A stretch of DNA of 32,502 nucleotides, taken from NCBI GenBank assembly GCA_029260635.1, contig JAJDCW010000127.1, forward strand, positions 1 through 32,502, read 5' to 3'. Positions 2,508 to 29,560 of the stretch are shown piece by piece. The notes below the pieces were generated by a model. The model saw only the letters and a list, made by a program, of their open reading frames with translations, ran no database searches and was not told the DNA's origin. How positions within the stretch are numbered: position 1 is the stretch's first letter; the number at the start of each line of letters is the position of its first letter. The position numbers and the translations under genes are program-made. The DNA is from Phycisphaeraceae bacterium. GTDB taxonomy: Bacteria; Planctomycetota; Phycisphaerae; Phycisphaerales; Phycisphaeraceae.

Positions 2508-2573
2508 TCCCCGCTCAGACAGATACCACTTCCGGGCAACCCGCCCGGCAGGTTCCCGGTTATCCTGTGTGGC

Positions 2574-3386: not shown

Positions 3387-3414
3387 GGGAATACATCCCT
3401 AACGAGGATTAGAT

Positions 3415-3918: not shown

Positions 3919-3936
3919 AGCAGAGTGATACAACGC

Positions 3937-4119: not shown

Positions 4120-4144
4120 CGTCGAGCTATACGCGAGAGGCCGC

Positions 4145-5290: not shown

Positions 5291-5343
5291 AATTGAGCTC
5301 CTATCTCGGCGATTCTCATCGCCCGGTGCCCAACCCTGCTTAA

Positions 5344-5416
5344 CGCGGGCGGGAGGATTCGAACCTCCAACCGTCGGTTCCGAAGACCGGTGCTCTATCC
5401 GTTGAGCTACGCCCGC
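5344..5416 (-). tRNA. tRNA-Arg, anticodon TCG
   Basis: Minus strand: GCGGGCG TA GCTC AACGGATA GAGC A CCGGT CTTCGGA ACCGA CGGTT GGAGG TTCGAAT CCTCC CGCCCGC G. Full cloverleaf with one C-A mismatch at 27-43 of the anticodon stem; loop CTTCGGA gives anticodon TCG. Confidence 0.92.
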
Positions 5417-5554
5417 TGCGGCGGCTGACCGCCAGGGGCGTATGTTAGCAAAGTCCGAGGACCTGTGGTTGGGTGTGTTGGGCATTAATTAATGCCACGA
5501 CCCATTGGCCGTGGAGTTTCAATAAAAAGTTTGCTGGTTACGAATAGTCATGAG

Positions 5555-7642: not shown

Positions 7643-7971
7643 AGGACTTGCCTCGGGTACTGGGTTTCGTGTCGGGCGACCGGCTACTGGCCGGCCAGGG
7701 GTATTCCGCGGGATTCTCTATCTATCGTCGGTATATAGCAGGTTTAGGTAAACCAGGAAGTGTGGAATGATAGCGTTATTGACCAGTTTAGGGGTAGCCG
7801 GATCGATGCGAAGGGCAGGAGAATAGGGGCACTATCGGACCAGAGAAAGAAGATTGTCCTTGCCGGTCTGTAACCACCTGTTAATGTTATAGTTCGAAAA
7901 GAGCGATCCGAGGGGCTCTCCAAGTTCCGCTTTGAACAGCCGCTTTGCAATCGAGATGAAGGCGTGCGGGA

Positions 7972-9279: not shown

Positions 9280-9286
9280 GGCGGTG

Positions 9287-10489: not shown

Positions 10490-10519
10490 GGGTAGTATCT
10501 CTTGATTCATTCGGCTCGA

Positions 10520-11185
10520 TCATGCACCGTCGGTTGGGGGAATGTCCGGGGGCAGGACCTGGGCACCGGTCTTGTTCTTTACATCGTCAAACGACACGCC
10601 GGGCGCTAACTCGATTAATCGAAAACCTTCCGGGGTGATGTCGATCACCGCCAGGTCGGTGTAGACCCGCGACACGACACCAACCCCGGTCAAGGGGTAG
10701 GTGCAGCGTTCCACCAGTTTAGGTTCGCCGGTCTTGGTGATGTGCTGCGTGACAACGAAGATCTGCTTGACGCCCTGGACCAGGTCCATCGCGCCGCCCA
10801 CAGCGGGGATGGCTCCGGGCTCACCGGTGGACCAGTTGGCGATATCGCCGTTGGCCGCGACCTGCATGGTGCCCAGCACGCAGACGTCCAGGTGGCCGCC
10901 GCGGATCATGCTGAAGCTGTCGGCGTGGTGGAAGTAGGCCGCACCCGGCACGGCGGTGACGTATTTCTTCCCCGCATTCATCAGGTCCAGGTCACGCTCG
11001 TTTTCACTTGGTGGCGGGCCCATACCCAGCAGGCCGTTCTCCGTGTGATAGATAAACTCACGCCCCTCGGGGACGAATTTCGCGACCAGCTCGGGGATGC
11101 CGATCCCGAGGTTGACGTACGAGCCGTTGGGGATGTCCTGCGCGGTGCGGGCCGCGATCTGTTCTCTTGTCCATCCGGTGGTCAT
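10520..11185 (-). CDS. 3-oxoacid CoA-transferase subunit B
   Basis: MTTGWTREQIAARTAQDIPNGSYVNLGIGIPELVAKFVPEGREFIYHTENGLLGMGPPP; SENERDLDLMNAGKKYVT. ATG at 11185 overlaps the end of subunit A. Confidence 0.93.
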   Translation of the reverse strand: MTTGWTREQIAARTAQDIPNGSYVNLGIGIPELVAKFVPEGREFIYHTENGLLGMGPPPSENERDLDLMNAGKKYVTAVPGAAYFHHADSFSMIRGGHLDVCVLGTMQVAANGDIANWSTGEPGAIPAVGGAMDLVQGVKQIFVVTQHITKTGEPKLVERCTYPLTGVGVVSRVYTDLAVIDITPEGFRLIELAPGVSFDDVKNKTGAQVLPPDIPPTDGA

Positions 11186-11892
11186 GGGTAACACCGCCCT
11201 TCCGCGATCAGGGTGTCTTCGTGTACCGGTTCGGGGACGTGGATAACACGGTTGACAAAGATACCTGGGGTGACGACGTGTTCGGGGTCGATGCCACCGC
11301 GATCGACCAGCCGACCTACCTGCACGATCGTGGTGGTGGCGGCCATGCACATCAGCGGGCTGAAATTACGGGCCGTCTTGTTGTAGGTCAGGTTGCCTAA
11401 CGGGTCGGCGGTGTCGCACTTGACCAGAGCGTATTCAGCCTTGAGCCAGCGTTCTAAGACGAACGTGCGCCCATCGAATTCACGTTGCTCCTTGCCCTCC
11501 GCCAAGACGGTTCCGACGGTGGTCGGGGTGTAGAACGCGGGGATGCCGGCCCCGGCGGCGCGGATGCGTTCGGCGAGCGTGCCCTGGGGGACCAGGTCTA
11601 ATTCGATCTTACCTGCCTTGTAATACTCCGGGAAGACTTTGGACTGGCTGGAACGCGGGAACGAGCAGATCATCTTGCGGACCTGCCCGTTGCCGATGAG
11701 CGCAGCCAGGCCGACTTCGCCGTTGCCCGTGTTGTTGTTAATGACGGTCAGGTTTTTCGCACCGTGGTCAATCAGCGCATGGATCAACTCGATCGGGCTG
11801 CCCGACGCGCCGAAACCGCCGAGCATCACCGTCGCACCGTCCGGGATGTCTGCCACCGCCTGCGCAACGGATGGGCACACCTTATTAATCAC
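11182..11892 (-). CDS. 3-oxoacid CoA-transferase subunit A
   Basis: DGATVMLGGFGASGSPIELIHALIDHGAKNLTVINNNTGNGEVGLAALIGNGQVRKMICSFPRS; TYNKTARNFSPLMCMAATTTIVQV. Confidence 0.93.
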   Translation of the reverse strand: MINKVCPSVAQAVADIPDGATVMLGGFGASGSPIELIHALIDHGAKNLTVINNNTGNGEVGLAALIGNGQVRKMICSFPRSSQSKVFPEYYKAGKIELDLVPQGTLAERIRAAGAGIPAFYTPTTVGTVLAEGKEQREFDGRTFVLERWLKAEYALVKCDTADPLGNLTYNKTARNFSPLMCMAATTTIVQVGRLVDRGGIDPEHVVTPGIFVNRVIHVPEPVHEDTLIAEGRCYP

Positions 11893-11913
11893 CTGCGGTC
11901 ACTCCGTTGGCTG

Positions 11914-12750
11914 TTATTGAAAAAACGTCTCGGTCGATTCCCATAATGACTCTATTCGGTCGATCCGCTCGGTGGCCTTGTCTTTAAGCTCACGCGCGAT
12001 CTTCGAGACCAACAGCTCGGCGATCGCCACCACGGGGACGGAGCTGTCGAACGGGCCGACGGCGGGCACGGCGATCTCGCACCAGGCATCGGCAAGCTCG
12101 ACGAGCGGCGACAAAGGGCCGTCGGTTATGGCGACGACATCGACGCCGGCCTCAGACAGCAGGCGGGTCGCATTCACAACGAAACGGCGGTAGCGGTAGA
12201 AATCGAAGACAACGGCGGTATCGTCTGGCCCGGCGTTGCTCAGTTCATTACCGATGGAGCGGTCGTCCAGCAGGTGGACATCGGGGCGGATCATCGACAA
12301 CCCGCTGTGGAAGGCGATAGCACCAGCACGCGAGGTCTCGCCGGAAAGGACCCAGACGTGGTTGGCCTCCACGACCGGATTCACCAGCCGGTTAATGTCC
12401 TGCCCCTGAACGACCTCGAAGACGGAATCGATGGCTTTATTGATGGCCTGACGGGCCGACGTATCTGTTTTTTCACCTCCCCGGATGCGCTCGCTCGGCC
12501 GGACGAGTTGGCGGGAAACCTCAGTTTGTACCTGGCTTTGCAGCTCGGTGTAGCCTTGAAAACCCAGCTTGTGGGCGAACCTCACGACAGAGGGCCGGCT
12601 GGTCCCGACGCGGTCGGCCAAGTCGGAAACCGTCCCGAACGCCAGCAACGTAGGCTCGGCCAGGACGGCTTCGGCGATCCGTCGGTCGGTTGGCGTCAGC
12701 TCGGCACCGGCGGAGGCCACTAACTCAGTCAGTGTGGAGGGCGATTTCAT
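11914..12750 (-). CDS. RpiR/MurR-family transcriptional regulator (HTH + SIS)
   Basis: N-terminal HTH: LTPTDRRIAEAVLAEPTLLAFGTVSDLADRVGTSRPSVVRFAHKLGFQGYTELQ; C-terminal SIS-like segment. Confidence 0.88.
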   Translation of the reverse strand: MKSPSTLTELVASAGAELTPTDRRIAEAVLAEPTLLAFGTVSDLADRVGTSRPSVVRFAHKLGFQGYTELQSQVQTEVSRQLVRPSERIRGGEKTDTSARQAINKAIDSVFEVVQGQDINRLVNPVVEANHVWVLSGETSRAGAIAFHSGLSMIRPDVHLLDDRSIGNELSNAGPDDTAVVFDFYRYRRFVVNATRLLSEAGVDVVAITDGPLSPLVELADAWCEIAVPAVGPFDSSVPVVAIAELLVSKIARELKDKATERIDRIESLWESTETFFQ

Positions 12751-12753
12751 GGC

Positions 12754-12799
12754 TGTACAGTATGTTACACTATTGATTTGTATTGTTCAATATGTTACA
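12754..12799. promoter_or_regulatory. Two near-identical 16-bp motifs, candidate operators
   Basis: TGTACAGTATGTTACA (12754-12769) and TGTTCAATATGTTACA (12784-12799), 14/16 identical, 30 bp start-to-start, between the divergent rpiR-like and kamA-like genes. Site 1 is TGTA-N8-TACA. Confidence 0.55.
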
Positions 12800-12854
12800 G
12801 TCTTATTTGTATGGGAAGTTATGTCGAAATAATCAGGTAGAAACGAGGTGCGAC

Positions 12855-14321
12855 ATGGTCAGCTCAGACGGTTACGAAATGACGGCTCGCCAGCGGGCTT
12901 TTCTGGACTCCATCGAGAACGCCCGATACGAACGGGAGATCATCAACGGCCTGAAGCCGTTCTTCAGCAATCACGTCCCGGATGATATGAAGGGCTTCTA
13001 CTCCGCGCAGGAACTTGAAGTCCTCAAGTCCCTCAGCGGCACCGACCGAGACGTCGAAGCCCGCATGCCCGTGAAGGTGACACGGCATTACTTCGACCTG
13101 GCACGGCAGAGCGCATCGCTACAGACTCTGGTTAAAGCCAACCCCGACGAGACGCTGAACCTGGTGGGGTCGGAAGACCCCGGCCATCAGATGGACTTCT
13201 CGCCGGTCGAGGGGCTGCTCCATAAGTACGAGATGGGGCTGCTGTACACCATCTCCACATGCTCATCACACTGCCGGTTCTGCTACCGCGAGGAATTGAT
13301 CGCACGCAAAGATATCGAGCGTCAGGACGGGACGGTTGCCAAGAAGGGTCTGGCCAAGATCAAGGACGTGGTCGCCTACATCAAGTCACACAACAAGAAG
13401 GTAGAAGACAACGGCGGGCTACATCCGACGACCGGGCGGGAGAAACTGCGCGAGATCCTGATGTCCGGCGGCGACGCGATGATGCTCTCCAATAAGAACA
13501 TCGGCGAGTGGCTTTCGTCGCTGGCCGAGGCGGGCGTCGAGGCGATCCGTATGGGCACCAAGGAGATGGCCTTCTACCCCAAGCGGTTTGATGCGACCTT
13601 CCTGTCGATGCTCGACAACTTCCACAAGACCTACCCCGACGTCAGCCTTCGGCTGATGGTCCACTTCAACCACCCCGACGAGTTCCTCCAGAAAGCTCCG
13701 GATGGCGAATACCTGACCAACCCCAACGGCTCGCTGATGTGGCACGAAGACACGCAACGGGCGATGGAGGGCGTCGTTCAGCGTGGCTGGATGCATGTCG
13801 AGAATCAGGCACCGATCATCAAGGGCATCAACGACAACGCCGAGGCACTCCGCATCCTCCAGCGGTCGCTGTACCACAAGGGCATCAACAACCACTACTA
13901 CTTCTGCGGCCGGGATATCGTCGCCTATAAGGCTTTTAACGTGCCGATCGAGACGGCTTGGAACCTGCTGAACGAGTCACAGAAGGGTTTGTCCGGCGTT
14001 GAGGCCCATGCCCGGCTGTCCATCACCCACTACAAGGGCAAGACGGAGGTTGCGGCGGTCACCAGCAAGCCGATCCCCGGCGTGAAGCACGCGGAGAACG
14101 GCGTGCTGATCTTCAAGAACCTGCGCAACGCATTGGACGCCCCGGACCGCGGCAAGACCTGCATCGTGGGACGCAACCCCGAGGCGATCTGGTTCAACGA
14201 CTACGAGGACCGGATCATCTGCGACGAGGTCGGTCTGTTCGACTACAAGCGGGTCGACAACAAACTCCTTAAATGCGACGGGCACTCCCTGAACGTTGTG
14301 CAGCCTACGGGATGCCCTTAA
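12855..14321 (+). CDS. KamA-family radical SAM aminomutase-like protein (lysine/glutamate 2,3-aminomutase family)
   Basis: CSSHCRFCYRE (CxxxCxxC radical SAM cluster motif) in a KamA context (KYEMGLLYTISTCSSHCRFCYR; ILMSGGDAMMLSNKNIGEWLSSL; NHPDEF; IIKGINDNAEALRILQRSLY). Start at ATG 12855 (MVSSDGYEMTARQRAF). Confidence 0.85.
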   Translation: MVSSDGYEMTARQRAFLDSIENARYEREIINGLKPFFSNHVPDDMKGFYSAQELEVLKSLSGTDRDVEARMPVKVTRHYFDLARQSASLQTLVKANPDETLNLVGSEDPGHQMDFSPVEGLLHKYEMGLLYTISTCSSHCRFCYREELIARKDIERQDGTVAKKGLAKIKDVVAYIKSHNKKVEDNGGLHPTTGREKLREILMSGGDAMMLSNKNIGEWLSSLAEAGVEAIRMGTKEMAFYPKRFDATFLSMLDNFHKTYPDVSLRLMVHFNHPDEFLQKAPDGEYLTNPNGSLMWHEDTQRAMEGVVQRGWMHVENQAPIIKGINDNAEALRILQRSLYHKGINNHYYFCGRDIVAYKAFNVPIETAWNLLNESQKGLSGVEAHARLSITHYKGKTEVAAVTSKPIPGVKHAENGVLIFKNLRNALDAPDRGKTCIVGRNPEAIWFNDYEDRIICDEVGLFDYKRVDNKLLKCDGHSLNVVQPTGCP

Positions 14322-16070: not shown

Positions 16071-16691
16071 TCAGGTGAGGTTACGATAATCCTGCGGCGT
16101 GTTGATGTTACGCACGACCGCTGATGAAGCGATTTCAACGGCAACGACAGCCTGTGAGTGCTGGTTAGGGAGTTCGCGAAGTCCGGTATCGCATGCGCCG
16201 GACATGATGAACGGGATGTAAGAAGCGGGGAAGATCATAGGGTGGCCGGTCTTGCCGTTGTGGGCGGCGATGATGATTTTATTGGGGGTATCCAGGAAGG
16301 CTTTGCAGCACTGTTGGATGTCCCCGGTACGTAGGCCGGGCTGGTCGCCGGGGCAGATGAGGATACCGGTATGGGGATCAAGTTCATATCGTTTTTGTAA
16401 GTCTGTAATGCCCAGCCTCACCGAGTCGATCATCTCGGCGTCCGGTTCATCGTTGAGTACGACGCCGACACCTGAAATAGATAAGTCTAGTGTCGAAGCG
16501 ACAAGGCTGTTGGTAACGACGATGGTTGAAGTAACCTGCTCACACGCGACGATCGGCTCGATCACCGCCTGCAACATCGGCTGGCCGTCTACATCTAGCA
16601 GTTGCTTCGGCTGACCCATGCGCGAGGATCGACCGGCGGCGGGGACGACGGCAAACAGACTCCCCTGCGTGTTGATCGGCTGGGAGGTCAT
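16071..16691 (-). CDS. MocA/YgfJ-like nucleotidyltransferase (molybdenum hydroxylase cofactor maturation)
   Basis: LFAVVPAAGRSSRMGQPKQLLDVDGQPMLQAVIEPIV; LICPGDQPGLRT; NGKTGHPMIFP. Adjacent to the molybdenum hydroxylase gene. Confidence 0.85.
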   Translation of the reverse strand: MTSQPINTQGSLFAVVPAAGRSSRMGQPKQLLDVDGQPMLQAVIEPIVACEQVTSTIVVTNSLVASTLDLSISGVGVVLNDEPDAEMIDSVRLGITDLQKRYELDPHTGILICPGDQPGLRTGDIQQCCKAFLDTPNKIIIAAHNGKTGHPMIFPASYIPFIMSGACDTGLRELPNQHSQAVVAVEIASSAVVRNINTPQDYRNLT

Positions 16692-16718
16692 AGGCCCTGC
16701 CCGGTAAGGTTGATCGGG

Positions 16719-19382
16719 TTATTTGCGTTTTGGTTTAGCGATCGCTTTGCCCGCCGGTGAATCGGTCATCGGTAGCTGTCGGCGGATCACGTGGTCGAAC
16801 TGGTACATCGCGCCTGCGATGGCGGGCGCGGTCGGGACCAGGCCGATCTCGCCAACACCGCGTGCACCGTGGGGGCACTCGGGGTCGGGCTCTTCGATGA
16901 ATATCAGCTCCATCTCAGGCATCTGATGGGCACGCAGCACGCCGCAGTCGTTGATCTTCTCGGCCTTGATGATAGAGCCTTCGACCTCGAAATCTTCTGA
17001 AAGCGCGTAGCCAATGCCCATGTGTAAAGAGCCGTACATCTGACCCTGGAGTTGAACGGGGTTGATGACCTTGCCAACGTCGTGGCAGGCGATCATCTTC
17101 TCCAATGCACCTTCGTCGTCGAGGATTGCGACCTGGGTGGCGAAGCCGTACGTGATGTGCGTCTTCGGCCCGCCGGGCTTATCCATATCCTTGCCGAGCT
17201 TGCTGGTGTAGTCGCAGATCCACTCGCCTTGGAATACCTGGCCGACCAGATCAGATAGCTGCTTGCCCTGATCGAGCGCGGCCTTGAGTCCTTTAGCCGC
17301 CTCGGCGATCGCGTTGCCAGCCAGGACAGTGGCGCGGCTGGCGGTCGTCTGGCCGCAGTCGAGCATCAGCGTGGTGTCGGTCTGACACTCGAAGAGTTCC
17401 GGGGGCAGGCCGGTCGCCTCGTGGGCGAACTGGATGCAGAGGGTGAACATCCCCTGGCCCATCTCAGTGAACCCGGTGCGGATGCGGATGGTGTTTTCAT
17501 CTTCGATGGAGAACGCGGCGCGCCCGATGTCCGGCATGCCGTTGCCGATGCCGACGTTCTTGATGCCGCAGGCGATGCCTGCGTATTTCGCGTTTTTATA
17601 CTGATCCTTGACCGCTTCGAGCGTACGACGCAGCCCAAAAGGTTTATCGAGGACTTGGCCGGTCGCGAAGGCCTCACCTGGCTCGAGGATGTTACGGTCG
17701 CGGATGTCGTAGCCATCGATCCCGCACTTCTCGGCGAGGCGGTCCAGCAAACCCTCAATCGCAAACGCGGCCTGGTTCGCGCCGAAACCACGCATGGCAC
17801 CGCAGGGCGGGTTGTTGGTGTAGACGGCCAACGAACTCATATCGATGTTGGGCACGCGGTACGGGCCGGTACAGTGACCGCCCGCGCGTTCGAGCACCTT
17901 GGCACCGACGGAGGCGTACGCGCCCTTGTCGCCGATGATGTTGGCTTTGACCGCCATGATGTGGCCCTCGGCGTCGCAGCCGATCTTGTAGGTCAGCGTG
18001 ATCGGGTGCCGCTTCACGTGGATGCGGAAGCTCTCGGGCCGGGTGAGCGTCATCTTCACCGGCTTGCCTGAGAGGAAGGCCAGCAGCGAGGTCTGCCCCT
18101 GGATGGACATGTCTTCCTTGCCGCCGAACGCCCCACCGTTGCTAACGAGTTCCACCTCGACACGCTCTTCGCTAAGCCCCAGCATCGACGAGATCTGACG
18201 GCGGTCATCGAAGACACCTTGACCTTGGGTATAAACTTTCAGCCCAGGGCCCGCATCGGTCTCTGTCGGTAAGGCAATACAGGCCTCGGGTTCGAGGAAC
18301 AGGTGCTCGATGTGCTGGGTGTGATAGGTGTCTTCCAGGACGTGGGCGCACTTAGCAAACGCGGCCTCGGCATCGCCCTTGACTAGCTTCGATTCACTCA
18401 GCAGGTTTGTTCCGCGCTCGGGGTGGACCAGCGGCGCATCGGACGCGAGTGCCTTGACCGGGTCGGTGACAGGCTCCTTGACGTTATATTCGACCTCGAT
18501 CAATTCGGCGGCCTTGCGGGCCAGGCGCTGGTCGTCCGCGACGACTGCGGCGATGACGTCGCCGGTGCATCGCGTGTCCTGCCCGATCGCCACAAAGGTC
18601 GGCCAGTCCTTGACGATCAGCCCGACATAGATCTCGCCGGGGACGTCCTTGGCCGTGACGACCTTGTGGACGCCTTCGAGTTCCAACGCTTTGCTCGCGT
18701 CGATCTTCACAACCGTCGCGCGGGGGTGGTCCGCCAGGCGCAGCGCGCCGTAGAGCATGCCCGGGACGGTCATGTCGTCCACGTACTTGCGGTCGCCGAG
18801 CACGGCGTCGTGGCCGGTGTAACGCTTAAGACTGGTCCCGACCTTGCCGGAGCCGTCTGCAGCGGACGTCTCAGGCAAAGCCTCGCCCGCGCGGACCTTG
18901 CTATACAGCTCGATGCTGTCGATGACCTGCTTGTACCCGGTGCATCGGCAGAGGTGCGGACGACAGGCCTTGGTGATCTCGTCACGGCTTGGCGTCGGAT
19001 TACTGTTGCACAGCCCGACGCCCCGCATGGCGAAACCGGGGATGCAGAAGCCGCACTGGACGCCGCCACATTGCACGAAGCTCTCGGAGATCTGATTGCG
19101 GTGCTCCTCGTCCAGCCCTTCGAGAGTTGTGATGGATTTGCCCTCGACCCGGCTTGGCTTCATGGTGCAGGAGAGCATCGGTTTGCCGTCCACCAGGACC
19201 GTGCAGCAGCCGCACTGGGCCTGGGGCTGGCAGCCGTTCTTAGGCGACGTGATCCCCAAACCGTCCCGCAGGACATCCAGCAGGGTCAGCCCATCGTCGG
19301 CGAGATCGACGGACACCGGCTTGCCGTTGACGGTGCAACTTAAAGTCTGAGTGGTAGTAGACATAGAGGATAATGTACTCAT
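16719..19382 (-). CDS. Xanthine dehydrogenase-family molybdenum hydroxylase, fused 2Fe-2S and molybdopterin domains
   Basis: N-terminus: NGCQPQAQCGCCTVLVDGK, CGFCIPGFAMR, CRPHLCRCTGYKQVIDSI. Mo domain: GGAFGGKEDMSIQGQ, NNPPCGAMRGFGANQAAFAIE, GARGVGEIGLVPTAPAIAGA. ATG at 19382 preceded by GGAGG. Confidence 0.93.
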   Translation of the reverse strand: MSTLSSMSTTTQTLSCTVNGKPVSVDLADDGLTLLDVLRDGLGITSPKNGCQPQAQCGCCTVLVDGKPMLSCTMKPSRVEGKSITTLEGLDEEHRNQISESFVQCGGVQCGFCIPGFAMRGVGLCNSNPTPSRDEITKACRPHLCRCTGYKQVIDSIELYSKVRAGEALPETSAADGSGKVGTSLKRYTGHDAVLGDRKYVDDMTVPGMLYGALRLADHPRATVVKIDASKALELEGVHKVVTAKDVPGEIYVGLIVKDWPTFVAIGQDTRCTGDVIAAVVADDQRLARKAAELIEVEYNVKEPVTDPVKALASDAPLVHPERGTNLLSESKLVKGDAEAAFAKCAHVLEDTYHTQHIEHLFLEPEACIALPTETDAGPGLKVYTQGQGVFDDRRQISSMLGLSEERVEVELVSNGGAFGGKEDMSIQGQTSLLAFLSGKPVKMTLTRPESFRIHVKRHPITLTYKIGCDAEGHIMAVKANIIGDKGAYASVGAKVLERAGGHCTGPYRVPNIDMSSLAVYTNNPPCGAMRGFGANQAAFAIEGLLDRLAEKCGIDGYDIRDRNILEPGEAFATGQVLDKPFGLRRTLEAVKDQYKNAKYAGIACGIKNVGIGNGMPDIGRAAFSIEDENTIRIRTGFTEMGQGMFTLCIQFAHEATGLPPELFECQTDTTLMLDCGQTTASRATVLAGNAIAEAAKGLKAALDQGKQLSDLVGQVFQGEWICDYTSKLGKDMDKPGGPKTHITYGFATQVAILDDEGALEKMIACHDVGKVINPVQLQGQMYGSLHMGIGYALSEDFEVEGSIIKAEKINDCGVLRAHQMPEMELIFIEEPDPECPHGARGVGEIGLVPTAPAIAGAMYQFDHVIRRQLPMTDSPAGKAIAKPKRK

Positions 19383-19579
19383 AACGTTTGGCCTCCGCGC
19401 GGCTTCTAAGCCCGCGATCCCGGTTTTCGTGTTTAACCGGTGGCCAACTCGTGCCCGGCTTCGCCGGACTATCCTTCCACCAATCGTCATTGTCGCCGGT
19501 ATAGCGTAAATCACCAAGAGAAAAGTACGAGAATATTTCGCTTTGTGACATCGGGCTTGTCGTGTATAAAGACATATCT

Positions 19580-20839
19580 ATGCCAAAAACCTCCCCGTTC
19601 GTTTCCCAAGCCGAAAAATATAAACCCAAAATGATCCGCTTTTTGCGGGACATGATCGCTATCCCCTCGGAATCCGCCGAGGAGGGCAAGGTTATCGCCC
19701 GCATCAAGCAGGAACTCAAGGCCACCGGGGCCTACGACAAGATCTGGACCGACAAGATGGGCAACCTCTTCGGGCAGATCGGCAAGCCCGGCAAGGGCAA
19801 GAAGCTGATCGCCATCGATGCCCACGTCGACACCGTCGGCGTCGGGGACCGCTCGGAGTGGAAGCACGACCCCTACCAGGGCAAGGTCGCGGATGGCAAG
19901 GTCTGGGGCCGGGGCGCCGGCGACCAGGAAGGCGCGATCCCAGCGATGGTCTACGCTGGCAAGATCATGCGTGACCTGAAGCTGAACCTCTCCGAGTACT
20001 ACGTCCTGCTGACCTTCACCGTGATGGAGGAAGACTGTGACGGGCTCTGCTGGCAGTACATCGTCAACGAGGGCAAGATCAAGCCCGACGCCGTGGTCGT
20101 GACCGACTCGACCAACTGCTGGATCCTCCGTGGCCACCGCGGGCGGATGGAGATCGGCGTGACCGCCAAGGGCAAGAGCTGCCACGGCTCGATGCCCGAG
20201 AAAGGCGACAACGCGATCTACAAGATCGCCAAGGTCACCAACGAGATCGAAAAACTCAACAAGCGGCTCAAGGCTGACAAGTTCCTGGGCAAGGGGACGA
20301 TCACCGTCAGCTACGTCGACTGCAAGACCCCCAGCATGTGTGCCGTGCCCGGCGAAGCGTTTATCCACCTTGACCGCCGCCTGACAGTGGGCGACACAAA
20401 AACCTCGGCCGTGAAGGAAGTCAAAGACGCGGTCAAGCGGGCCGGGGTGAAAGCCAAGGTCGAGGTGCTGCGCTACGCACGCCCCAGCTACACCGGCTTA
20501 ACATACGAAACCGAAAAGTACTTCCCCACCTGGTGCGAAGACGAGGACGACTTGCAGATCCAGGCCGCGATCAAGAACCACCGTGATGTGCTGGGTGCCG
20601 CCCCGACGCTGCACCGCTGGACGTTCAGCACCAACGGCGTCTCCATCGCCGGGATGTATGGCATCCCCTGCGTCGGGTTCGGGCCGGCTCCCGAAAACGT
20701 CGCCCACACCGTCAACGACTCCGTCCCGATCGACCACCTGGTCAAGTGCGCCGCGTTCTACGCCGGCTTCGGCCAGTCCTACTGCGATCTGGCACACAAA
20801 CGACCCAACGACACCAATATGAACGTCAAGCGAAGATAA
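19580..20839 (+). CDS. ygeY: YgeY-family M20-type amidohydrolase/deacylase
   Basis: MPKTSPFVSQAEKYKPKMIRFLRDMIAIPSESAEEGKVIARIKQEL; IDAHVDTVGVGDRSEW; WGRGAGDQEGAIPAMVYAGKIM; FTVMEEDCDGLCWQYIV. Confidence 0.92.
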   Translation: MPKTSPFVSQAEKYKPKMIRFLRDMIAIPSESAEEGKVIARIKQELKATGAYDKIWTDKMGNLFGQIGKPGKGKKLIAIDAHVDTVGVGDRSEWKHDPYQGKVADGKVWGRGAGDQEGAIPAMVYAGKIMRDLKLNLSEYYVLLTFTVMEEDCDGLCWQYIVNEGKIKPDAVVVTDSTNCWILRGHRGRMEIGVTAKGKSCHGSMPEKGDNAIYKIAKVTNEIEKLNKRLKADKFLGKGTITVSYVDCKTPSMCAVPGEAFIHLDRRLTVGDTKTSAVKEVKDAVKRAGVKAKVEVLRYARPSYTGLTYETEKYFPTWCEDEDDLQIQAAIKNHRDVLGAAPTLHRWTFSTNGVSIAGMYGIPCVGFGPAPENVAHTVNDSVPIDHLVKCAAFYAGFGQSYCDLAHKRPNDTNMNVKRR

Positions 20840-20897
20840 TAATTCGGCGAGGCTGCATCAGCGGCCGTGCCTGTATCAATGAAAGGTAAAGCTTCAG

Positions 20898-21935
20898 ATG
20901 ACCGTGAGCCTCAAAGGAAAGAACTACATCGAGACCCAGGACCTGAGCCTGGACGAATTGAACCTGCTGCTGGAGACCTCGGACGAGCTGAAAGCCAAGT
21001 TCCACCGGGGCGAGCCGACCGTGGTCCTGAATAACCAGACGGCTTACCTGCTGTTCTTCGATAAATCGACAAGGACGCGTAACGCTTTCGAGGCCGGGAT
21101 GACTCAGCTAGGCGGGCATGCCCACTTCCTGGACGCCGACGTCACTCAGATCAGCCACGGCGAGACCCCCGCCGACACCGGCAAGATCCTCGCGGCGATG
21201 GGCCACGGCATCTGCGTCCGTCACGACCTGGTCCTGGACGAGGGCAACAAGTACATGCGCGAGATGGCCGCGGCTTGCAACGTCCCGATCATCAACATGC
21301 AATGCGATGTCGACCACCCGACGCAGACGCTGGCCGACATCATGACCATCCGAGAACACTTCGGGAAAGACAATGTCGCGGGCCTGAAGATCGCGGTCAC
21401 ATGGGCGTTCGCCCCCAGCTACGCCAAGCCGTTGAGTGTCCCGCAGGGTTTGATCACGCTGATGACCCGGTTCGGGATGCACGTCTCGCTGGCCCACCCC
21501 GAGGGCTATAACCTGATCGAGCGCACCGTCGAGTCCGCCAGGTCCAACGCCAAGGCATCCGGCGGATCGTTCGAGATCGTGGACGATATGGACGCCGCCT
21601 TCGCCGATGCGGATATCGTGTACCCCAAGAGCTGGGGCGTCTACGACCTGATGCTCGAGCGTCAGAACGCGACCACCAAGGCAGAGATCGACGCCAACCA
21701 GCTGGCTTGTCTGGAGATGAACCACAAGCACAAGGACTGGATCTGCGACGAGCGTCGGATGAAGCTCGCCAAGGACTCGGCCGTCTACATGCACTGCCGC
21801 CCCGCCGACCGGGATGCGGAAGTCACCGACGCCGTGATCGACGGCCCGCAGTCGATCGTCTTCCAGGAGGCCGAGAACCGCCTGCACACCGCCAAAGCCA
21901 TCATGTCCTGCACGATGCGCGAACGGCCGTTCTAA
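20898..21935 (+). CDS. ygeW: Knotted carbamoyltransferase, YgeW family
   Basis: FFDKSTRTRNAFEAGMTQLGGHAHFLD; QISHGETPADTGKIL; MQCDVDHPTQTLADIMTIREHFG; TWAFAPSYAKPLSVPQGLITLMTRFGMHVSLAHPEGYNLI; KASGGSF; YPKSWGVYDLM. Close to recalled E. coli YgeW segments. Confidence 0.9.
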   Translation: MTVSLKGKNYIETQDLSLDELNLLLETSDELKAKFHRGEPTVVLNNQTAYLLFFDKSTRTRNAFEAGMTQLGGHAHFLDADVTQISHGETPADTGKILAAMGHGICVRHDLVLDEGNKYMREMAAACNVPIINMQCDVDHPTQTLADIMTIREHFGKDNVAGLKIAVTWAFAPSYAKPLSVPQGLITLMTRFGMHVSLAHPEGYNLIERTVESARSNAKASGGSFEIVDDMDAAFADADIVYPKSWGVYDLMLERQNATTKAEIDANQLACLEMNHKHKDWICDERRMKLAKDSAVYMHCRPADRDAEVTDAVIDGPQSIVFQEAENRLHTAKAIMSCTMRERPF

Positions 21936-21952
21936 GAATCGAAACACATACC

Positions 21953-21986
21953 AACCGCAGGGGCCACAAGCCTTTGCGGTTTTTTA
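21953..21986 (+). terminator. Rho-independent terminator-like hairpin between ygeW and carbamate kinase
   Basis: aACCGCAGGGGCcacaaGCCTTTGCGGTTTTTTA: imperfect hairpin followed by a T run. Confidence 0.65.
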
Positions 21987-22000
21987 CTGGGTGAATCGTT

Positions 22001-22960
22001 ATGGGAAAGGCCGGACCAACCGTCATCGCTCTGGGGGGCAACGCGATCAGCGTGCCCGGGGAGCAGGGGAACATCCCCCAGCAGTTCGCGCACATGTCCG
22101 ATACCGCGCGGTACCTGACGGACGCCATCGCGGGTGGCCGGCACGTCGTCCTGACCCACGGCAACGGCCCGCAGGTCGGCAACGTCCTGCGCCGCGTCGA
22201 GCTGGCGTCGTCGGAGATGTACCCCCTGCCGTTGGAGGTCTGTGTGGCCGACACGCAGGCGGGGATGGGCTACATGATCGGGCAGTGCATGATCAATGCG
22301 CTTAAGAAACGCGGGATCGAGACCGATGTCACGACGCTGGTGACCAACGTCCTGATCGACCAGGACGACGCCGCATTCAAACGACCGACCAAGCCGATCG
22401 GCTCGCAGATGTCCAAAGCCCAGGCCGAGGCCCACCGGGACAACGATGGCTGGTCGATCACGGAAGTCGCGGAAGGCATCTACCGGCGGATCGTCCCGTC
22501 GCCGATCCCTCAGGAAATCATCGAGCTGAACACCATCCAACGGCTCGTCGAGGATGGCGAGCTGGTCATCTGCTGCGGCGGAGGCGGCGTGCCGGTGGTC
22601 CGCGATGAACTCGGGATGCTGCGAGGGGCGGCCGCGGTGATCGACAAGGACCGCACCTCCGCCCTGCTCGCCAAGGAACTGAACGCCGAGGCGTTGGTGA
22701 TCCTCACCGCCGTGGAACGCGTCTGCCTGAACTTCGGCAAGCCGGATCAGAAGACCCTGGACACCCTGACCGTCACCGAGGCGAAGACCTACCTGAAAGA
22801 CGGCCACTTCGCCGAGGGCTCGATGAAGCCGAAGGTCGAGGCCGCGGTGGATTTCGTGGAAGGGTCAACCAGCCCCGACGTCGTAGCAATCATTGCGGAG
22901 TTGAGCCGATTGAGTGATGCGCTTGAGGGGAAGAGTGGGACGCGGATAACGCGAAGTTGA
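22001..22960 (+). CDS. arcC: Carbamate kinase
   Basis: VIALGGNAISVPGEQGNIPQQFAHM; VLTHGNGPQVGNVLRRVELAS; CVADTQAGMGYMIGQC; CCGGGGVPV; VIDKDRTSALLAKELNAEALVILTAVERV; GSMKPKVEAAVDFVE. Confidence 0.96.
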   Translation: MGKAGPTVIALGGNAISVPGEQGNIPQQFAHMSDTARYLTDAIAGGRHVVLTHGNGPQVGNVLRRVELASSEMYPLPLEVCVADTQAGMGYMIGQCMINALKKRGIETDVTTLVTNVLIDQDDAAFKRPTKPIGSQMSKAQAEAHRDNDGWSITEVAEGIYRRIVPSPIPQEIIELNTIQRLVEDGELVICCGGGGVPVVRDELGMLRGAAAVIDKDRTSALLAKELNAEALVILTAVERVCLNFGKPDQKTLDTLTVTEAKTYLKDGHFAEGSMKPKVEAAVDFVEGSTSPDVVAIIAELSRLSDALEGKSGTRITRS

Positions 22961-22991
22961 AATAGGCGGCAAGAATAAAACCGCATCGTTT

Positions 22992-23213
22992 CTACGGAAT
23001 CAACTTATAATCTGCTCGCATTCGGCCAATAATATAATTAAGGTTCTTGTAATCACCTTCATTTACAAGATCAATAATTGATCTGCCGCCGACGAGGGGC
23101 AACTTCATAGTTACCCACTTTTCGGGTTCTGGCAATGCTCTCTCGCCTATCTCCAAGATACGAGTTCGATAAGGATCAGGGATATCAGCAAGTGTTTTAG
23201 CTATATCAGCCAC
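22992..23213 (-). CDS. Small hypothetical protein (73 aa, GTG start)
   Basis: MADIAKTLADIPDPYRTRILEIGERALPEPEKWVTMKLPLVGGRSIIDLVNEGDYKNLNYIIGRMRADYKLIP; same strand and 27 bp downstream of ssnA; less GC-rich than neighbours. Confidence 0.5.
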   Translation of the reverse strand: MADIAKTLADIPDPYRTRILEIGERALPEPEKWVTMKLPLVGGRSIIDLVNEGDYKNLNYIIGRMRADYKLIP

Positions 23214-23240
23214 AGTTACATCATTTCGGTACCGTGATCA

Positions 23241-24560
23241 TTACTCGCACGGAATCTCACCCATCCGCTCATGCAGCGCACGGGAAACCTCCACGCTCTT
23301 CCCCCGGACTTCGGCTTCGTCGCAACTCACCACTTCCCCGCCTCGTAGTTTCCAGTCGCCGCCGATCATGACGTCGGAGACAAACTCGGGGCCCATGGCG
23401 TAGATGAGGTGGCCGGCGAGGTTGTCGGCGCTCAGCGGGGTCGCCGGGGTGTACTTCGTCAGCACGAGGTCGGCTTCGGCGCCGGGTTCCAGGACGCCGA
23501 GTTTGACGCCCAGGGCCTTTGAGGCGTAGCGGGCGGATTCGCCGATCATGGCGAGCGGTCGGCCGAACGGCAGCGGGATGTCGCCATCATGGCTCTTGAA
23601 CTGTGCGGTGCGGGCCTCGCGCCACATGTCGGCCCCGATGCCGTCGGTCCCGAGCATCGGGGGTCGGTCGAACCGGGCGACCGGAGCGTAGCCGACGGCG
23701 TTGTTCATGTTCGAGTTAGTGTTGTGGGCCATCGTGATGGTGTCACGCTCGTTGATCGCCTGGATATCGGCGTCGCTTAGGTGCGTGCCGTGGGCGAAGA
23801 TGGTGTCTGGATGATCCAGCAGGCCGTGCTCCTTGAAACGGTCGAACAGGGTCTGCCCGTAGCCTGCCTGGGTCATCGCTTCATCGCAGCCATCCTCGGC
23901 GACGTGGATGTGTATACCGACCTGTAATTCCTTGGCGAACGAGACGCAGGCCGCCAGGGACTTTTCGTTGAGGGTGAAGCTGGCGTGTGCGCCGACCATC
24001 CCGGCGAACCGGCCGTTGTTGCGTTTCTTGCAGAGGACGACGAAGCGTTCGTTCTCATCAAGGCCACGCAGGGCCTCGTTCTTATGATTGCGGTCGGTGG
24101 CTTCGTAGCAGAGGACGCCCCGGCAGCCGGCTTGGGCGATCCCGCCTTCCAGATCAGACAGGCTGCCCTCAATCGCGTTGGGCGAGGCGTGGTGGTCAAT
24201 CAGCGTCGTTGTGCCGCAACGCAGCGCGGCCAGCGCGCCGACGACCCCGCTGGTACGGATGCTCTCCACATCATGAGCGAGGTCCAGCCGCCACCAGACA
24301 TACTTAAGAATCTCAAAAAAGTTGGTCGGCGTCTTGGGCGGCGCGGGCATCCCCGCGGCGAGGGCGGAGTACAAGTGAGTGTGCCCGTTGACCAGGCCTG
24401 GCATAAGGACCGCCCCGCCGCAATCGATCATCTCGTCGCCCTGCTCGGGGGTGATGTCTCCCACCGCGACGATCTTGCCATCCACCACGTGGAGGTTGCC
24501 CTGCTGGACCATCGGCGGGTCGAGCTGGACGAGGGTCGCGTTGGTGAAGCAGGTGCCCAT
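23241..24560 (-). CDS. ssnA: Putative aminohydrolase SsnA (amidohydrolase superfamily)
   Basis: DCGGAVLMPGLVNGHTHLYSALAAGMPAP; CGTTTLIDHHASPNAIEGSL; GIHIHVAEDGCDEA; IFAHGTHLSDADIQAI; MLGTDGIGADMWREA. Confidence 0.9.
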   Translation of the reverse strand: MGTCFTNATLVQLDPPMVQQGNLHVVDGKIVAVGDITPEQGDEMIDCGGAVLMPGLVNGHTHLYSALAAGMPAPPKTPTNFFEILKYVWWRLDLAHDVESIRTSGVVGALAALRCGTTTLIDHHASPNAIEGSLSDLEGGIAQAGCRGVLCYEATDRNHKNEALRGLDENERFVVLCKKRNNGRFAGMVGAHASFTLNEKSLAACVSFAKELQVGIHIHVAEDGCDEAMTQAGYGQTLFDRFKEHGLLDHPDTIFAHGTHLSDADIQAINERDTITMAHNTNSNMNNAVGYAPVARFDRPPMLGTDGIGADMWREARTAQFKSHDGDIPLPFGRPLAMIGESARYASKALGVKLGVLEPGAEADLVLTKYTPATPLSADNLAGHLIYAMGPEFVSDVMIGGDWKLRGGEVVSCDEAEVRGKSVEVSRALHERMGEIPCE

Positions 24561-24620
24561 GGTTGTTGGTCAATTGTGCCCACGTTCAGTAAACGAGGGC
24601 GTCTTTATGTGATAGTTATA

Positions 24621-26072
24621 TCACAGAAGATCGAGGACGCCGGTCTGCTGGTTGAATCCTTCGATCAGGGTATCCCATTCATCGACCTGGGCGAAGGTCT
24701 TCGTCCAGAAGTCCGGGTCCCAGAGCTCGTTGAGTTCTTCGATGGTTCGGCCCTGCTGCTCAACCCAGGTGAAGTACTTGAAGTTGTGAAGGGCCTTGCG
24801 GTCTGCGTAGTTCAGCTCACGCACGTGGTCGGTGACGATCCCGTCCAGGTAGCGGGCGCGGTCGGCGATGGCCTGGTCACGGGTGTAGGCCCCGCGTTCT
24901 TCGGTGAGCTCGGCGAGCCGGCTGCCGTAGAGTTCCGACGAGTCGGTCAGGCAGGTGAAGATGACATCCTTGCCGTTCATGTCGTAGTGCTGCGCGGTCT
25001 TGATCGCGGCGGCCAGGTTGCAGATGCAGGAGATGCCCAGCAAGGGCAGCTGGTCAACGAGTTCACCGGGCAGCGTGGATTTCAGGTATTCCTGGCCCGC
25101 GGGCTCGTTGAACAGACGTAACAGCGACATGCATTGCTCATCATCGATCGCTGAGATCATGTCGGTGTTTCGGACGTTGTGGACCCATGGGACGTGCTTG
25201 TCGCCGATGCCCTCGATGCGGTGCCCGCCGAAGCCGAACTGGTAGAGCGTCGGGCATTGCAGGGCTTCGGTGGCGACAACGCGCACCCCCGGATGCAAGG
25301 TTCGTAAATAATCCCCGGCGGCGATGGTTCCCGCGCTGCCGGTGGCTGAAACGTAACCTGCCAGGCGTTTATCGTCGCCGAGTGTCTCGAAAACCTCCTG
25401 GATGATGGAGCCGGTGACGTGGTAATGCCAGGTCGGGTTCCCGAATTCTTCGAACTGGTTGAAGATCACGCACTCGGGGCGGGTATTGCGGATCTCCCAG
25501 CACTTGTCGTAGATCTCTTTGACGTTGGACTCGCAGCCGGGGGTCGCGATGACCTCCGAGCAGATGCCGTTGAGCCAGTCGAAGCGTTCCTTACTCATTT
25601 CTTCGGGGAGGATGGCGACCGCGTCACAGCCCAGCAGCGCCGAGTCGAACGCGCCACCACGGCAGTAGTTGCCGGTGCTGGGCCAGACCGCCTTGTTCTG
25701 GGTGGTGTCGAATTCACCGGTGACGAGGCGCGGGGCCAGGCAGCCGTAGGCCGCGCCGACCTTGTGTGCGCCGGTTGGGAAGTACTTGCCGACGATCCCG
25801 ATGATGGTGGCGTCCACGCCTGTCATCTCCGGCGGGAAGACGACGTAGTTGCCATTGTTGTAGAGGCCGCCCTTCTCGGTCGGTTCGTTCTTCCAGCTGA
25901 TGCGGAACAGGTTTATGGGGTCGACATCCCATAGCCCGACCTGCTTAAGCCGGTCCTTGACCTTATCGGGGACAAGCCCGGGATCGCGCATCTGCGCGAA
26001 GGTCGGCAGCAGGACCTTGCGATCGCGGCACTGGTTTACGGTTCGATCTAATACGTCCTGATTCACCTTCAT
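24621..26072 (-). CDS. Fold-type-II PLP-dependent enzyme (cysteine synthase/ammonia-lyase-like)
   Basis: FPTGAHKVGAAYG (candidate PLP Lys), WPSTGNYCRGGAFDSALLGCDAVAILPEEMS, SATGSAGTIAAGDYLRTLHPGVRVVATEA. ATG at 26072 overlaps the upstream stop (ATGA). Confidence 0.85.
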   Translation of the reverse strand: MKVNQDVLDRTVNQCRDRKVLLPTFAQMRDPGLVPDKVKDRLKQVGLWDVDPINLFRISWKNEPTEKGGLYNNGNYVVFPPEMTGVDATIIGIVGKYFPTGAHKVGAAYGCLAPRLVTGEFDTTQNKAVWPSTGNYCRGGAFDSALLGCDAVAILPEEMSKERFDWLNGICSEVIATPGCESNVKEIYDKCWEIRNTRPECVIFNQFEEFGNPTWHYHVTGSIIQEVFETLGDDKRLAGYVSATGSAGTIAAGDYLRTLHPGVRVVATEALQCPTLYQFGFGGHRIEGIGDKHVPWVHNVRNTDMISAIDDEQCMSLLRLFNEPAGQEYLKSTLPGELVDQLPLLGISCICNLAAAIKTAQHYDMNGKDVIFTCLTDSSELYGSRLAELTEERGAYTRDQAIADRARYLDGIVTDHVRELNYADRKALHNFKYFTWVEQQGRTIEELNELWDPDFWTKTFAQVDEWDTLIEGFNQQTGVLDLL

Positions 26073-27373
26073 CAATTTGCTCCGTCCAATACACCCCGGA
26101 CACCCCGGACACCCCGGACACCCCGGATACCCCGGGGTTCTAATGCGTTTGCGAGGCTGTCCATATCGGGTTTGATGCTGATCGGTTTGCCGCCTGCCTG
26201 GATGGCGGCTTTGGTGTCCTTCAATCCGCTGCCGGTGACCATGCTCAGGACCCGGTCGTTGGCCGAGATCACGTCGACTTCCCGGGCGGCCATGACCCCC
26301 GCCAAAGCTGCGGCGGCCGCGGGTTCTGCATAGATGCCGTGCCGCCCGCCGAGCTTCATCGCGTCGAGTATCTGGTGGTCGTCCACACAGACCAGCACGC
26401 CGTCGGCTTCCTTCAGTGCGTTGACCGCCTTGCGCCAGTTGCGGGGGACCGGGACGTTGATGCTGTCGGCGATGGTCCCGCCGTCCTGGAGTTTGTCCGG
26501 TAGTTTGCCGTGCTCAAGGACGTACCCGATCGGAGCGACGCCGTCGGCCTGCACGCCCAGCAGGCGAGGCAGGCGGTCGATCTGGCCTAGCTGGTGCATC
26601 TGCTTTAAGCCCTTCCAGATGCCAGCCACCGTGCAGCCATCCCCGACGCTGACCGCGACCCAGTCGGGCACCCCGCCGAAGCTGTGGGACTGTTCTGCGA
26701 TCTCCAACCCGCCGGTTTTCTTACCCTCGACCAGTACGGGGTTGATTGCGCAGTTGCGGTTGTACCAGCCGAACTTCGTGCAGGCCGCCGAGCAGAGGTT
26801 GTAGGCCTCGTCGTAGCTGCCTTGCACGGCGACGACATGGGCTCCGTAGACCAGCAGTTGGGCGAGTTTGGGCTGCGGCGCGGTTCGGGGGACAAAGATG
26901 ACGCAGGGCATGCCCGCCAGTGCGGCGTGGCCTGCGAGGCTGGTCGCGGCGTTGCCGGTCGAGGCGCAGGCGATGGTGCTGGCTTTGCACTGCAAAGCAT
27001 GGGCGACGCCCACCGAGCTTGCGCGGTCTTTGAAGCTGGCGGTGGGATTCCGGCCGTCGTCTTTGAAAAGCAGCTGCTTGAGGCCCAGCTCACCGGCGAG
27101 CCGTTGCGTGTCGATCACCGGGGTCCAGCCGACCTGCCAGTCTTCGCGGATACTCGATTCGGCCAGCGGCAGCAGCTCGCGGTATCGCCAATGGTTCAAC
27201 GCTCGGCCGTGCAGGGGGTTTTCCTGCCAGGCGTGACGGACGGCATCAAGGTCAAAGTTGATGTCCACAATACCCTCATCGGGGCCGCAGTCTTCACACG
27301 CAATCCAGGGCTTGTCCGCCCCGTAGGTTCGGCCGCAAGCCACGCATGTCAGGCCTGTGATAAATCTGCTCAT
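26072..27373 (-). CDS. Threonine synthase-like fold-type-II PLP enzyme with N-terminal zinc ribbon
   Basis: CVACGRTYG...CEDCG; LLFKDDGRNPTASFKDRASSVGVAHAL; ACASTGNAATSLAGHAALAGMPCVIFVP; SVGDGCTVAGIWKGLKQM. Confidence 0.88.
   Translation of the reverse strand: MSRFITGLTCVACGRTYGADKPWIACEDCGPDEGIVDINFDLDAVRHAWQENPLHGRALNHWRYRELLPLAESSIREDWQVGWTPVIDTQRLAGELGLKQLLFKDDGRNPTASFKDRASSVGVAHALQCKASTIACASTGNAATSLAGHAALAGMPCVIFVPRTAPQPKLAQLLVYGAHVVAVQGSYDEAYNLCSAACTKFGWYNRNCAINPVLVEGKKTGGLEIAEQSHSFGGVPDWVAVSVGDGCTVAGIWKGLKQMHQLGQIDRLPRLLGVQADGVAPIGYVLEHGKLPDKLQDGGTIADSINVPVPRNWRKAVNALKEADGVLVCVDDHQILDAMKLGGRHGIYAEPAAAAALAGVMAAREVDVISANDRVLSMVTGSGLKDTKAAIQAGGKPISIKPDMDSLANALEPRGIRGVRGVRGVRGVLDGAN
26091..26135 (-). 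repeat. 9-bp tandem repeat (ACACCCCGG x4 + ATACCCCGG) coding RGV repeats
   Basis: + strand: ACACCCCGG ACACCCCGG ACACCCCGG ACACCCCGG ATACCCCGG; encodes GIRGVRGVRGVRGV at the C-terminus of the threonine synthase-like protein. Confidence 0.95.
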
Positions 27374-27532
27374 CAGAGAATAATCCCAAAAGGTCTATTG
27401 TACCGCGCGGGGCTGAATGCACCTAACATAAACAATCCACAAAGATTATGGTTGGTCATATCCACCCCGTCGATTACGCTAAAGGGCTGGCACCGCGCCC
27501 TGTGACCTTGTGAAAACCCGTCGAAGCATCCC

Positions 27533-29560
27533 ATGGTAGACCTTTACTGCTCCCCTTTCGTGGACCTGATCGACCGCATGCGTCTGGAATACCAGACCCG
27601 GTCGAGCATGTTCGACCTGCCCGCCAAGAAGTGGTTCCACCCCTCGGCAGACCCGGATGCGCCGGACCTTTCAACCACGTTCCACGGCCGACCCGCGGGC
27701 AACCCCGTTGGCCCGGCCGCCGGGCCGCAGACGCAGATGGCTCAAAATCTGGTCCTGGCGTACCTGGCGGGGTCGCGGATCTTCGAGCTGAAGACCGTGC
27801 AGATCAACGACCGGCTTGAGATACCCCGGCCCTGTATCGACGCGACGAACATCGGCTACAACGTCGAGTGGTCCCAGGAACTCTTGCTGCACGAATCTCT
27901 GGATCAGTACGTCCAGGGGTGGATGCTTTTGCACATGCTCCGGCAGAGCCCGGAGACGTTTGGCAATCCGTTTAGCGATTCACCCATCGCTGGCCCAGCG
28001 GGCGATTTCCTGTTCGATATGTCCGTCGGGTACGACCTCAAGGGCATCCAATCGGACACAGTCCGACGGTTCCTTAGCGGGATGCTGGACGCCTCCAAAG
28101 ACATCGAAGCACTCAAGGCCCTGCTGCCCGACCGGTTAATGCACCTGCGCGATCTGGATTACCCGTCAGCCCTGAGCAGCAGCATCACGCTCTCGACATT
28201 CCACGGTTGCCCGGCCGACGAGATCGAACGCATATGCGAATTCCTGCTCACCGAAATCGGCGTCGACGTCATCGTGAAGATGAACCCCCCGATGCTCGGC
28301 GCCGAGCGGCTGGAGTACCTGCTGCACGACGTGATGGGGTATCACGAAGTCACGGTCAACCCCGAGGCCTACACCAGCGGGCTCTTGTTCGATGAATCGA
28401 TCGAGATATGCAGGCGGCTGGACACACTGGCGAAAGCCAACGGACGTTCGTTTGGGGCGAAGTTCTCAAACACGCTGGAAGTGGTCAATCACAAGGATTT
28501 TTTCACCCCGGATAACAAGGTGATGTACCTGTCCGGGCCGCCGCTGCATGTCATCACGCTGACGCTGGCGGCCGAGTTCCGCAAAGTCATGGGTCACGCC
28601 ATGCCGATCACCTTTTCCGCGGGTGTGGACCGCAAGAACTTCCCGAACATGGTGGCCTGCGGCTTCAAACCGATCACGACCTGTACCGACCTCTTAAAAC
28701 CCGGCGGCTACGGCCGACTGCCCGGCTACCTCGGCGACCTGACCGCAGGGATGACCAAACTCGGCGCGAAGACGATCGATGAGTTCATCCTCAAAGCAAA
28801 CAGTCACGGAGACGAAGCGGGTGGCGACCCGGTTCTGGCGGGCTTCCTGAACATGGCGGACATCGTCAAGGAAACCCAGGCCGACCCACGCTACACCCAG
28901 GCGAAGAACCAGATGGTGCCCAAGCGGATCAACTCGCACCTGGTGGTCTTCGATTGCGTAACCTGCAACAAGTGCATCCCGGTCTGCCCGAACGACGCAA
29001 ACTTCTTGTACGAAACACCGAAGGTTGACCTGTTGTATCGGGATATCGCGGTGCAACCGGACGGGACCATTAAAGAGGTGGGTGAAGAGAAGGAATTCAA
29101 GGTCGAACGCACCGAGCAGATCGCGAACTTCGCGGACTATTGCAACCACTGCGGCAACTGCGACACGTTCTGCCCGGAGTACGATGGGCCTTACATCAAG
29201 AAGCCGAGTTTCTTTGGCAGCCTCAAGGCGTTTGAGGACGGGGCTCCGCACGACGGGTTTTATGTGGATGCCCAGGGCGAGAGGTATGCGTTACTGGGCC
29301 GAATGGATGGCGTGGCGTGCAGGCTTGACAGCCTGGACGAGGCGGGCAAGTCGTACGAGTATGACGATGGCGTCGTGACGCTGATTATTGAGGATGGACG
29401 CCCGACCGAACTGGCTGGATTGTGCTCCGGTCAGCCGCACCCCCCGCACATTGTCGATCTTGGACGATTCCATACGCTCGCCGTACTCCTAAACAGTATC
29501 ACCAGCTCCTCTCGGGTCCATCAGGTCAACGCCCCACTGGTCGCTTCCGGAGCGCCCTAG
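27533..29560 (+). CDS. ygfK: YgfK-like protein: DHOD-like domain plus 4Fe-4S ferredoxin domain, short form
   Basis: GNPVGPAAGPQTQMAQNLVLAYLAGSRIFELKTVQINDRLEIPRPCID; LSTFHGCPADEIERICEFLL; TDLLKPGGYGRLPGYLGDL; CVTCNKCIPVCPNDAN; YCNHCGNCDTFCPEYDGPYIKKPSFFGSL. Colinear with recalled E. coli YgfK apart from a missing central block. Confidence 0.9.
   Translation: MVDLYCSPFVDLIDRMRLEYQTRSSMFDLPAKKWFHPSADPDAPDLSTTFHGRPAGNPVGPAAGPQTQMAQNLVLAYLAGSRIFELKTVQINDRLEIPRPCIDATNIGYNVEWSQELLLHESLDQYVQGWMLLHMLRQSPETFGNPFSDSPIAGPAGDFLFDMSVGYDLKGIQSDTVRRFLSGMLDASKDIEALKALLPDRLMHLRDLDYPSALSSSITLSTFHGCPADEIERICEFLLTEIGVDVIVKMNPPMLGAERLEYLLHDVMGYHEVTVNPEAYTSGLLFDESIEICRRLDTLAKANGRSFGAKFSNTLEVVNHKDFFTPDNKVMYLSGPPLHVITLTLAAEFRKVMGHAMPITFSAGVDRKNFPNMVACGFKPITTCTDLLKPGGYGRLPGYLGDLTAGMTKLGAKTIDEFILKANSHGDEAGGDPVLAGFLNMADIVKETQADPRYTQAKNQMVPKRINSHLVVFDCVTCNKCIPVCPNDANFLYETPKVDLLYRDIAVQPDGTIKEVGEEKEFKVERTEQIANFADYCNHCGNCDTFCPEYDGPYIKKPSFFGSLKAFEDGAPHDGFYVDAQGERYALLGRMDGVACRLDSLDEAGKSYEYDDGVVTLIIEDGRPTELAGLCSGQPHPPHIVDLGRFHTLAVLLNSITSSSRVHQVNAPLVASGAP

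Follow-up and report, generated by a model that had tools for sequence, protein, structure and literature searches.

Does the locus at positions 16071-29560 of a Phycisphaeraceae contig encode a route for the breakdown of urate, and which enzyme would carry out the final step of such a route? The reductive urate pathway, elucidated in 2025, has been discussed mainly as a trait of gut microbes, and urate may be an overlooked source of carbon and nitrogen in environmental phyla. The stretch of DNA analysed here (the window; 32,502 nucleotides) is the entire contig C127 of a 3.9 Mb genome that consists of 344 contigs and is 92% complete. A preliminary description had recognised eight genes in this region. 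All genes that it named were recovered in place with highly significant family matches, but family profile searches raise the count to nine, and two overlapping PALP genes (ThrC-like and PALP484) between those for SsnA and YgfK had been overlooked. The cluster comprises, in order:

16071..16691, minus strand: MocA-like nucleotidyltransferase for molybdenum cofactor maturation (PF12804; TIGR03310, 127 bits, cut-off 186; 25% identity to E. coli MocA)
16719..19364, minus strand: XdhAC, a fused Fe-S and Mo-binding xanthine dehydrogenase homologue (TIGR03311, 940.8 bits, cut-off 830)
19580..20839, plus strand: YgeY, an M20-family ureido hydrolase (TIGR03526, 522.6 bits, cut-off 321; 49% identity to E. 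coli YgeY)
20898..21935, plus strand: YgeW carbamoyltransferase, short subtype, 345 aa (best family PRK07200, 308 bits, cut-off 453; 43% identity to E. coli YgeW)
22001..22960, plus strand: carbamate kinase, YqeA/ArcC type (above the PRK12352 cut-off; TIGR00746, 354 bits, cut-off 358; 45% identity to YqeA)
23241..24560, minus strand: SsnA amidohydrolase (PRK07203, 393 bits, cut-off 444; 40% identity to E. coli SsnA)
24621..26075, minus strand: PALP484, an uncharacterised PLP enzyme and candidate YgeX replacement (PF00291 only)
26072..27373, minus strand: ThrC-like PLP enzyme, the other candidate for catalysing the YgeX step (threonine synthase fold; above the TIGR00260 cut-off)
27533..29560, plus strand: short YgfK, 675 aa (TIGR03315, 398 bits in two stretches, cut-off 835; 37% identity to E. 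coli YgfK)

Curated cut-offs are passed by XdhAC and YgeY and missed by YgeW, SsnA, the MocA-like protein and YgfK, though for the latter four these families are the best match. Translation of YgeY likely starts at the ATG at 19580, and a comparison of starts makes the ATG at 19364 or 19382, not the TTG at 19517, the likely start of XdhAC. The ORF at 19511-20368 on the minus strand is a shadow of YgeY with no family match and was discarded. Promoter and terminator scans gave no clear excess over chance. The synteny survey called for in the preliminary description showed that the other genomes sampled from the genus (G001-G005, Phycisphaeraceae) have the cluster in the same order as far as their contigs extend, and this genus-wide synteny rules out a chance grouping of genes, contamination or a chimeric contig. 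The planctomycete origin guessed earlier agrees with the closest named records, which are Phycisphaeraceae MAGs.

Two further features of the window lie outside the cluster. Positions 7972-14321 carry genes for a class III aminotransferase, a PcaF-type thiolase (above cut-off), the CoA-transferase subunits PcaJ and PcaI, an RpiR-family regulator and a divergent KamA-family radical SAM protein that stays below all aminomutase cut-offs; their order is repeated at locus L047, and they possibly represent a beta-amino acid route to 3-oxoadipate. A tRNA-Arg gene (5344-5416) overlaps the 5' part of the ORF at 4145-5485, whose first residues resemble translated tRNA and whose true start is probably downstream.

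The urate pathway was rebuilt in vitro by Li and co-workers with enzymes of E. coli and C. difficile (PMC12507026). XdhD converts urate to yanthine, YgfK and SsnA reduce and open the ring to yield ureidomethyl-hydantoin, HyuA produces diureidopropionate, from which YgeW and YgeY strip the ureido groups, and YgeX forms pyruvate (PMC12507026). In C. sporogenes, the first step is performed by XdhAC according to a commentary (PMC12990295). Most parts of our cluster match the pathway reconstituted by Li and co-workers (PMC12507026), which lends good support to the urate reading; the window holds candidates for every step except those of HyuA and YgeX. Family membership, conserved purine-site residues in the xanthine dehydrogenase homologue and the match to a biochemically solved pathway all point to urate or purine breakdown, as had been suggested in the preliminary description.

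The cluster probably specifies a modified form of the reductive urate pathway, which would proceed as follows. XdhAC would convert urate to yanthine (2,8-dioxopurine), the short YgfK would reduce the purine ring, and SsnA is predicted to open the reduced ring to give ureidomethyl-hydantoin. A hydantoinase, probably the dihydropyrimidinase encoded on contig C258, would open the second ring to 2,3-diureidopropionate. YgeW would then transfer one ureido group to phosphate, giving carbamoyl phosphate from which carbamate kinase would make ATP, YgeY would hydrolyse the other ureido group to leave 2,3-diaminopropionate, and PALP484 and/or the ThrC-like protein would, in place of YgeX, convert this compound to pyruvate and ammonia. 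Ferredoxin is the probable electron source, and selenium is probably unused in the genus.

With respect to the upper part of the pathway, which requires a xanthine dehydrogenase homologue clustered with SsnA and with either YgfK or UacX, genes for the homologue, YgfK and SsnA are found together here, SsnA and YgfK being best matches to their families at scores below the cut-offs. XdhAC is the predicted urate-to-yanthine reductase, and its Glu (in FGGKE) and Arg (in MRGFG) align with the substrate-binding residues of the bovine xanthine dehydrogenase purine site. The short YgfK consists of an FMN-type N-terminal part and a 4Fe-4S C-terminal part, and its alignment with E. coli YgfK is confined to residues 9-405 and 904-979 of the latter; in this alignment the NAD(P)H/FAD part of the E. 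coli protein is missing from it, and it is for want of this middle part that it scores below the TIGR03315 cut-off. A phmmer search of the short YgfK against the PDB returned no match. Lack of the NAD(P)H/FAD domain suggests a ferredoxin-fed variant of the enzyme and, since there is also no FAD subunit beside XdhAC in the cluster, electrons are probably derived from ferredoxin. Two other loci (L066, 4000-6600; L077, 3600-6000) show YgfT-like and PydA-like matches where related loci carry the short YgfK, an arrangement that parallels UacX.

For the second ring opening, the pathway requires a HyuA hydantoinase, and none was found within the window, nor was a urate permease. The search for hyuA homologues proposed earlier turned up no dedicated gene: the only hydantoinase above cut-off in the genome lies on contig C258 (L137), in a cluster at 2114-10350 whose other ORFs read as PydA, beta-ureidopropionase, a nucleobase permease, an aminotransferase and an aldehyde dehydrogenase, and which is a probable reductive pyrimidine breakdown cluster. 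We infer that this dihydropyrimidinase, which shares 35% identity with E. coli HyuA, probably serves the urate pathway as well as the pyrimidine pathway.

Removal of the ureido groups depends on YgeW (or UacY) and YgeY, and both YgeW and YgeY are encoded in the cluster. Among solved structures, E. coli YgeW (3q98) matches the carbamoyltransferase best, by a wide margin over ornithine carbamoyltransferases. Judged from the presence of both YgeW and carbamate kinase, ATP would be gained from carbamoyl phosphate, in line with the preliminary description. Two subtypes of YgeW occur beside PALP484, namely a short one of about 326-350 aa, as in the window, and an E. coli-like one of about 380-400 aa. 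Matches to PydC-like proteins (ureidopropionase) were noted near SsnA, PALP484 or ThrC-like genes at L043, L089, L127, L173, L174, L175 and L179, mostly at loci without YgeW and YgeY, and these proteins are perhaps another way of removing ureido groups.

A second gap concerns the final step. The pathway requires YgeX, and no YgeX above cut-off was detected in this genome or in ten relatives; neither PALP484 nor the ThrC-like protein reaches the cut-off of the YgeX family model, and in both the Asp of the YgeX motif TDGN is missing, the sequence being STGN instead. The start of PALP484 overlaps the stop codon of the ThrC-like gene (TGATG). The ThrC-like protein has the same fold as the threonine synthase family (fold type II PLP enzymes) and differs from it by lacking the Arg of the NPxRxEGQKT motif, which is absent from all 30 members aligned and present in the five solved threonine synthases matched. 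A role as housekeeping threonine synthase was rejected because of this missing Arg and because the genome contains further thrC genes, of which one carries that residue. PALP484 is closest, in both its profile and its structural model (pLDDT 88.6), to cysteine synthase, beta-cyanoalanine synthase and cystathionine beta-synthase; it shares the core of the cysteine synthase/CBS family (also fold type II) and differs by its longer chain and by matching no named family beyond PF00291.

Among 393 Planctomycetota genomes, SsnA is present in 25 and PALP484 in 29, and the two occur jointly in 19 where 1.8 would be expected (Fisher p = 2.9e-20); by genus the association is 17/20 (p = 1e-17), both p values being too small since the genomes are related. 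In the single-contig genome G205, the genes for PALP484 and SsnA are megabases apart, and the association is therefore more than operon linkage. Four of the 25 genomes with SsnA carry YgeX; they belong to one genus and lack PALP484. YgeX was found in none of the 19 genomes with both SsnA and PALP484; this alternation between YgeX and PALP484 within the phylum may reflect a single evolutionary event. Both enzymes are missing from two SsnA genomes that are 59% and 77% complete, and in three of the ten PALP484 genomes without a counted SsnA an SsnA-like gene adjoins PALP484.

We also inspected 80 named PALP484 loci, using tblastn with known proteins instead of clustering of longest ORFs, which had yielded mainly shadow ORFs in this GC-rich DNA. 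Pathway genes are located nearby at 47 loci (upper and lower part at 24, upper part only at 8, lower part only at 15), and ygeX is near none. At one of these loci, L092, the cluster resembles that of E. coli and includes PALP484, hyuA and ygfK, but not ygeX. At 25 of the 80 loci no pathway gene is visible within the fetched DNA; given such loci, the function of PALP484 may be broader. The observed distribution is most simply explained by a non-orthologous replacement of YgeX. As a tentative proposal, for which our confidence stays somewhat below even, PALP484 and the ThrC-like protein might form a new enzyme pair that cleaves diaminopropionate or its monoureido form and replaces YgeX in a selenium-free, ferredoxin-driven urate pathway of several environmental phyla.

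We regard it as rather unlikely that the urate pathway is correct but the ThrC-like protein alone is the terminal lyase, PALP484 acting elsewhere, perhaps on a monoureido intermediate or in a different pathway. The alignment to YgeX does extend over 172 residues for the ThrC-like protein and over only 47 for PALP484, the ThrC-like gene of G104 is found inside the cluster (L169) with PALP484 on a different contig, and there are PALP484 genes without pathway neighbours. However, the full clusters at L092 and L117 include PALP484 with no ThrC-like gene nearby, and PALP484 tracks SsnA genome-wide even when the two are unlinked. A related N-heterocycle or another purine as the substrate, instead of urate, appears improbable: although molybdenum hydroxylases of the XdhAC family vary in their substrates (PMC2276186) and XdhAC shares only about 26% identity with E. 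coli XdhD, the purine-site Glu and Arg are kept, and SsnA, YgfK, YgeY and YgeW jointly fit the urate route.

The cluster genes bear selenium names in databases, and a link to selenium-dependent molybdenum hydroxylases, to be checked by searching for selD and yqeB, had been drawn before. It was not borne out for the genus: 15 of 101 genomes searched have selD above cut-off, but no genome of the genus does (six examined, four of them 92-95% complete), and TIGR03309, the yqeB marker proposed by Haft and Self for such enzymes (PMC2276186), was found in none of 11 genomes tested. By the criteria of these authors (PMC2276186), selenium dependence is unlikely in the host genus, and a selenium-dependent system of the kind that the family names suggest is very improbable even though XdhAC passes the cut-off of a family named selenium-dependent xanthine dehydrogenase and selD is present in three more distant relatives with cluster genes (G053, G066, G072).

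Returning to the reductive urate pathway as the preferred reading, the recovered loci assign the pathway, or modules of it, to Planctomycetota, Sumerlaeota, Krumholzibacteriota, Gemmatimonadota, Pseudomonadota and further groups, mainly in environmental MAGs, which are incomplete; an occurrence outside the usual gut taxa, as already noted for this locus, thus extends to several environmental phyla. In a published survey the YgeX step was scored by the broad domain PF00291 (PMC12507026, figure 3 legend), and such scoring would count enzymes of the PALP484 or ThrC-like type as YgeX. The proposed replacement of YgeX can be tested directly.

Compared with the reductive urate pathway of E. coli (xdhD-ygfM, ygfK, ssnA, hyuA, ygeW, yqeA, ygeY, ygeX; PMC12507026), homologues of the xanthine dehydrogenase, YgfK, SsnA, YgeW, carbamate kinase and YgeY are likewise clustered in the planctomycete. 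However, the xanthine dehydrogenase is of the XdhAC type and not XdhD-YgfM, YgfK is devoid of the NAD(P)H/FAD part, the cluster has two other PALP enzymes but neither hyuA nor ygeX, and the host genus lacks both selD and yqeB. The name XdhAC is shared with the enzyme of C. sporogenes (PMC12990295). In C. difficile, as here, the xanthine dehydrogenase has no adjacent FAD subunit and the reductase no FAD domain (PMC12507026), two absences from which Li and co-workers suggested ferredoxin for that organism (PMC12507026). C. difficile differs in that it uses UacX and UacY instead of YgfK and YgeW and retains YgeX, whereas the planctomycete has YgfK and YgeW but no YgeX.
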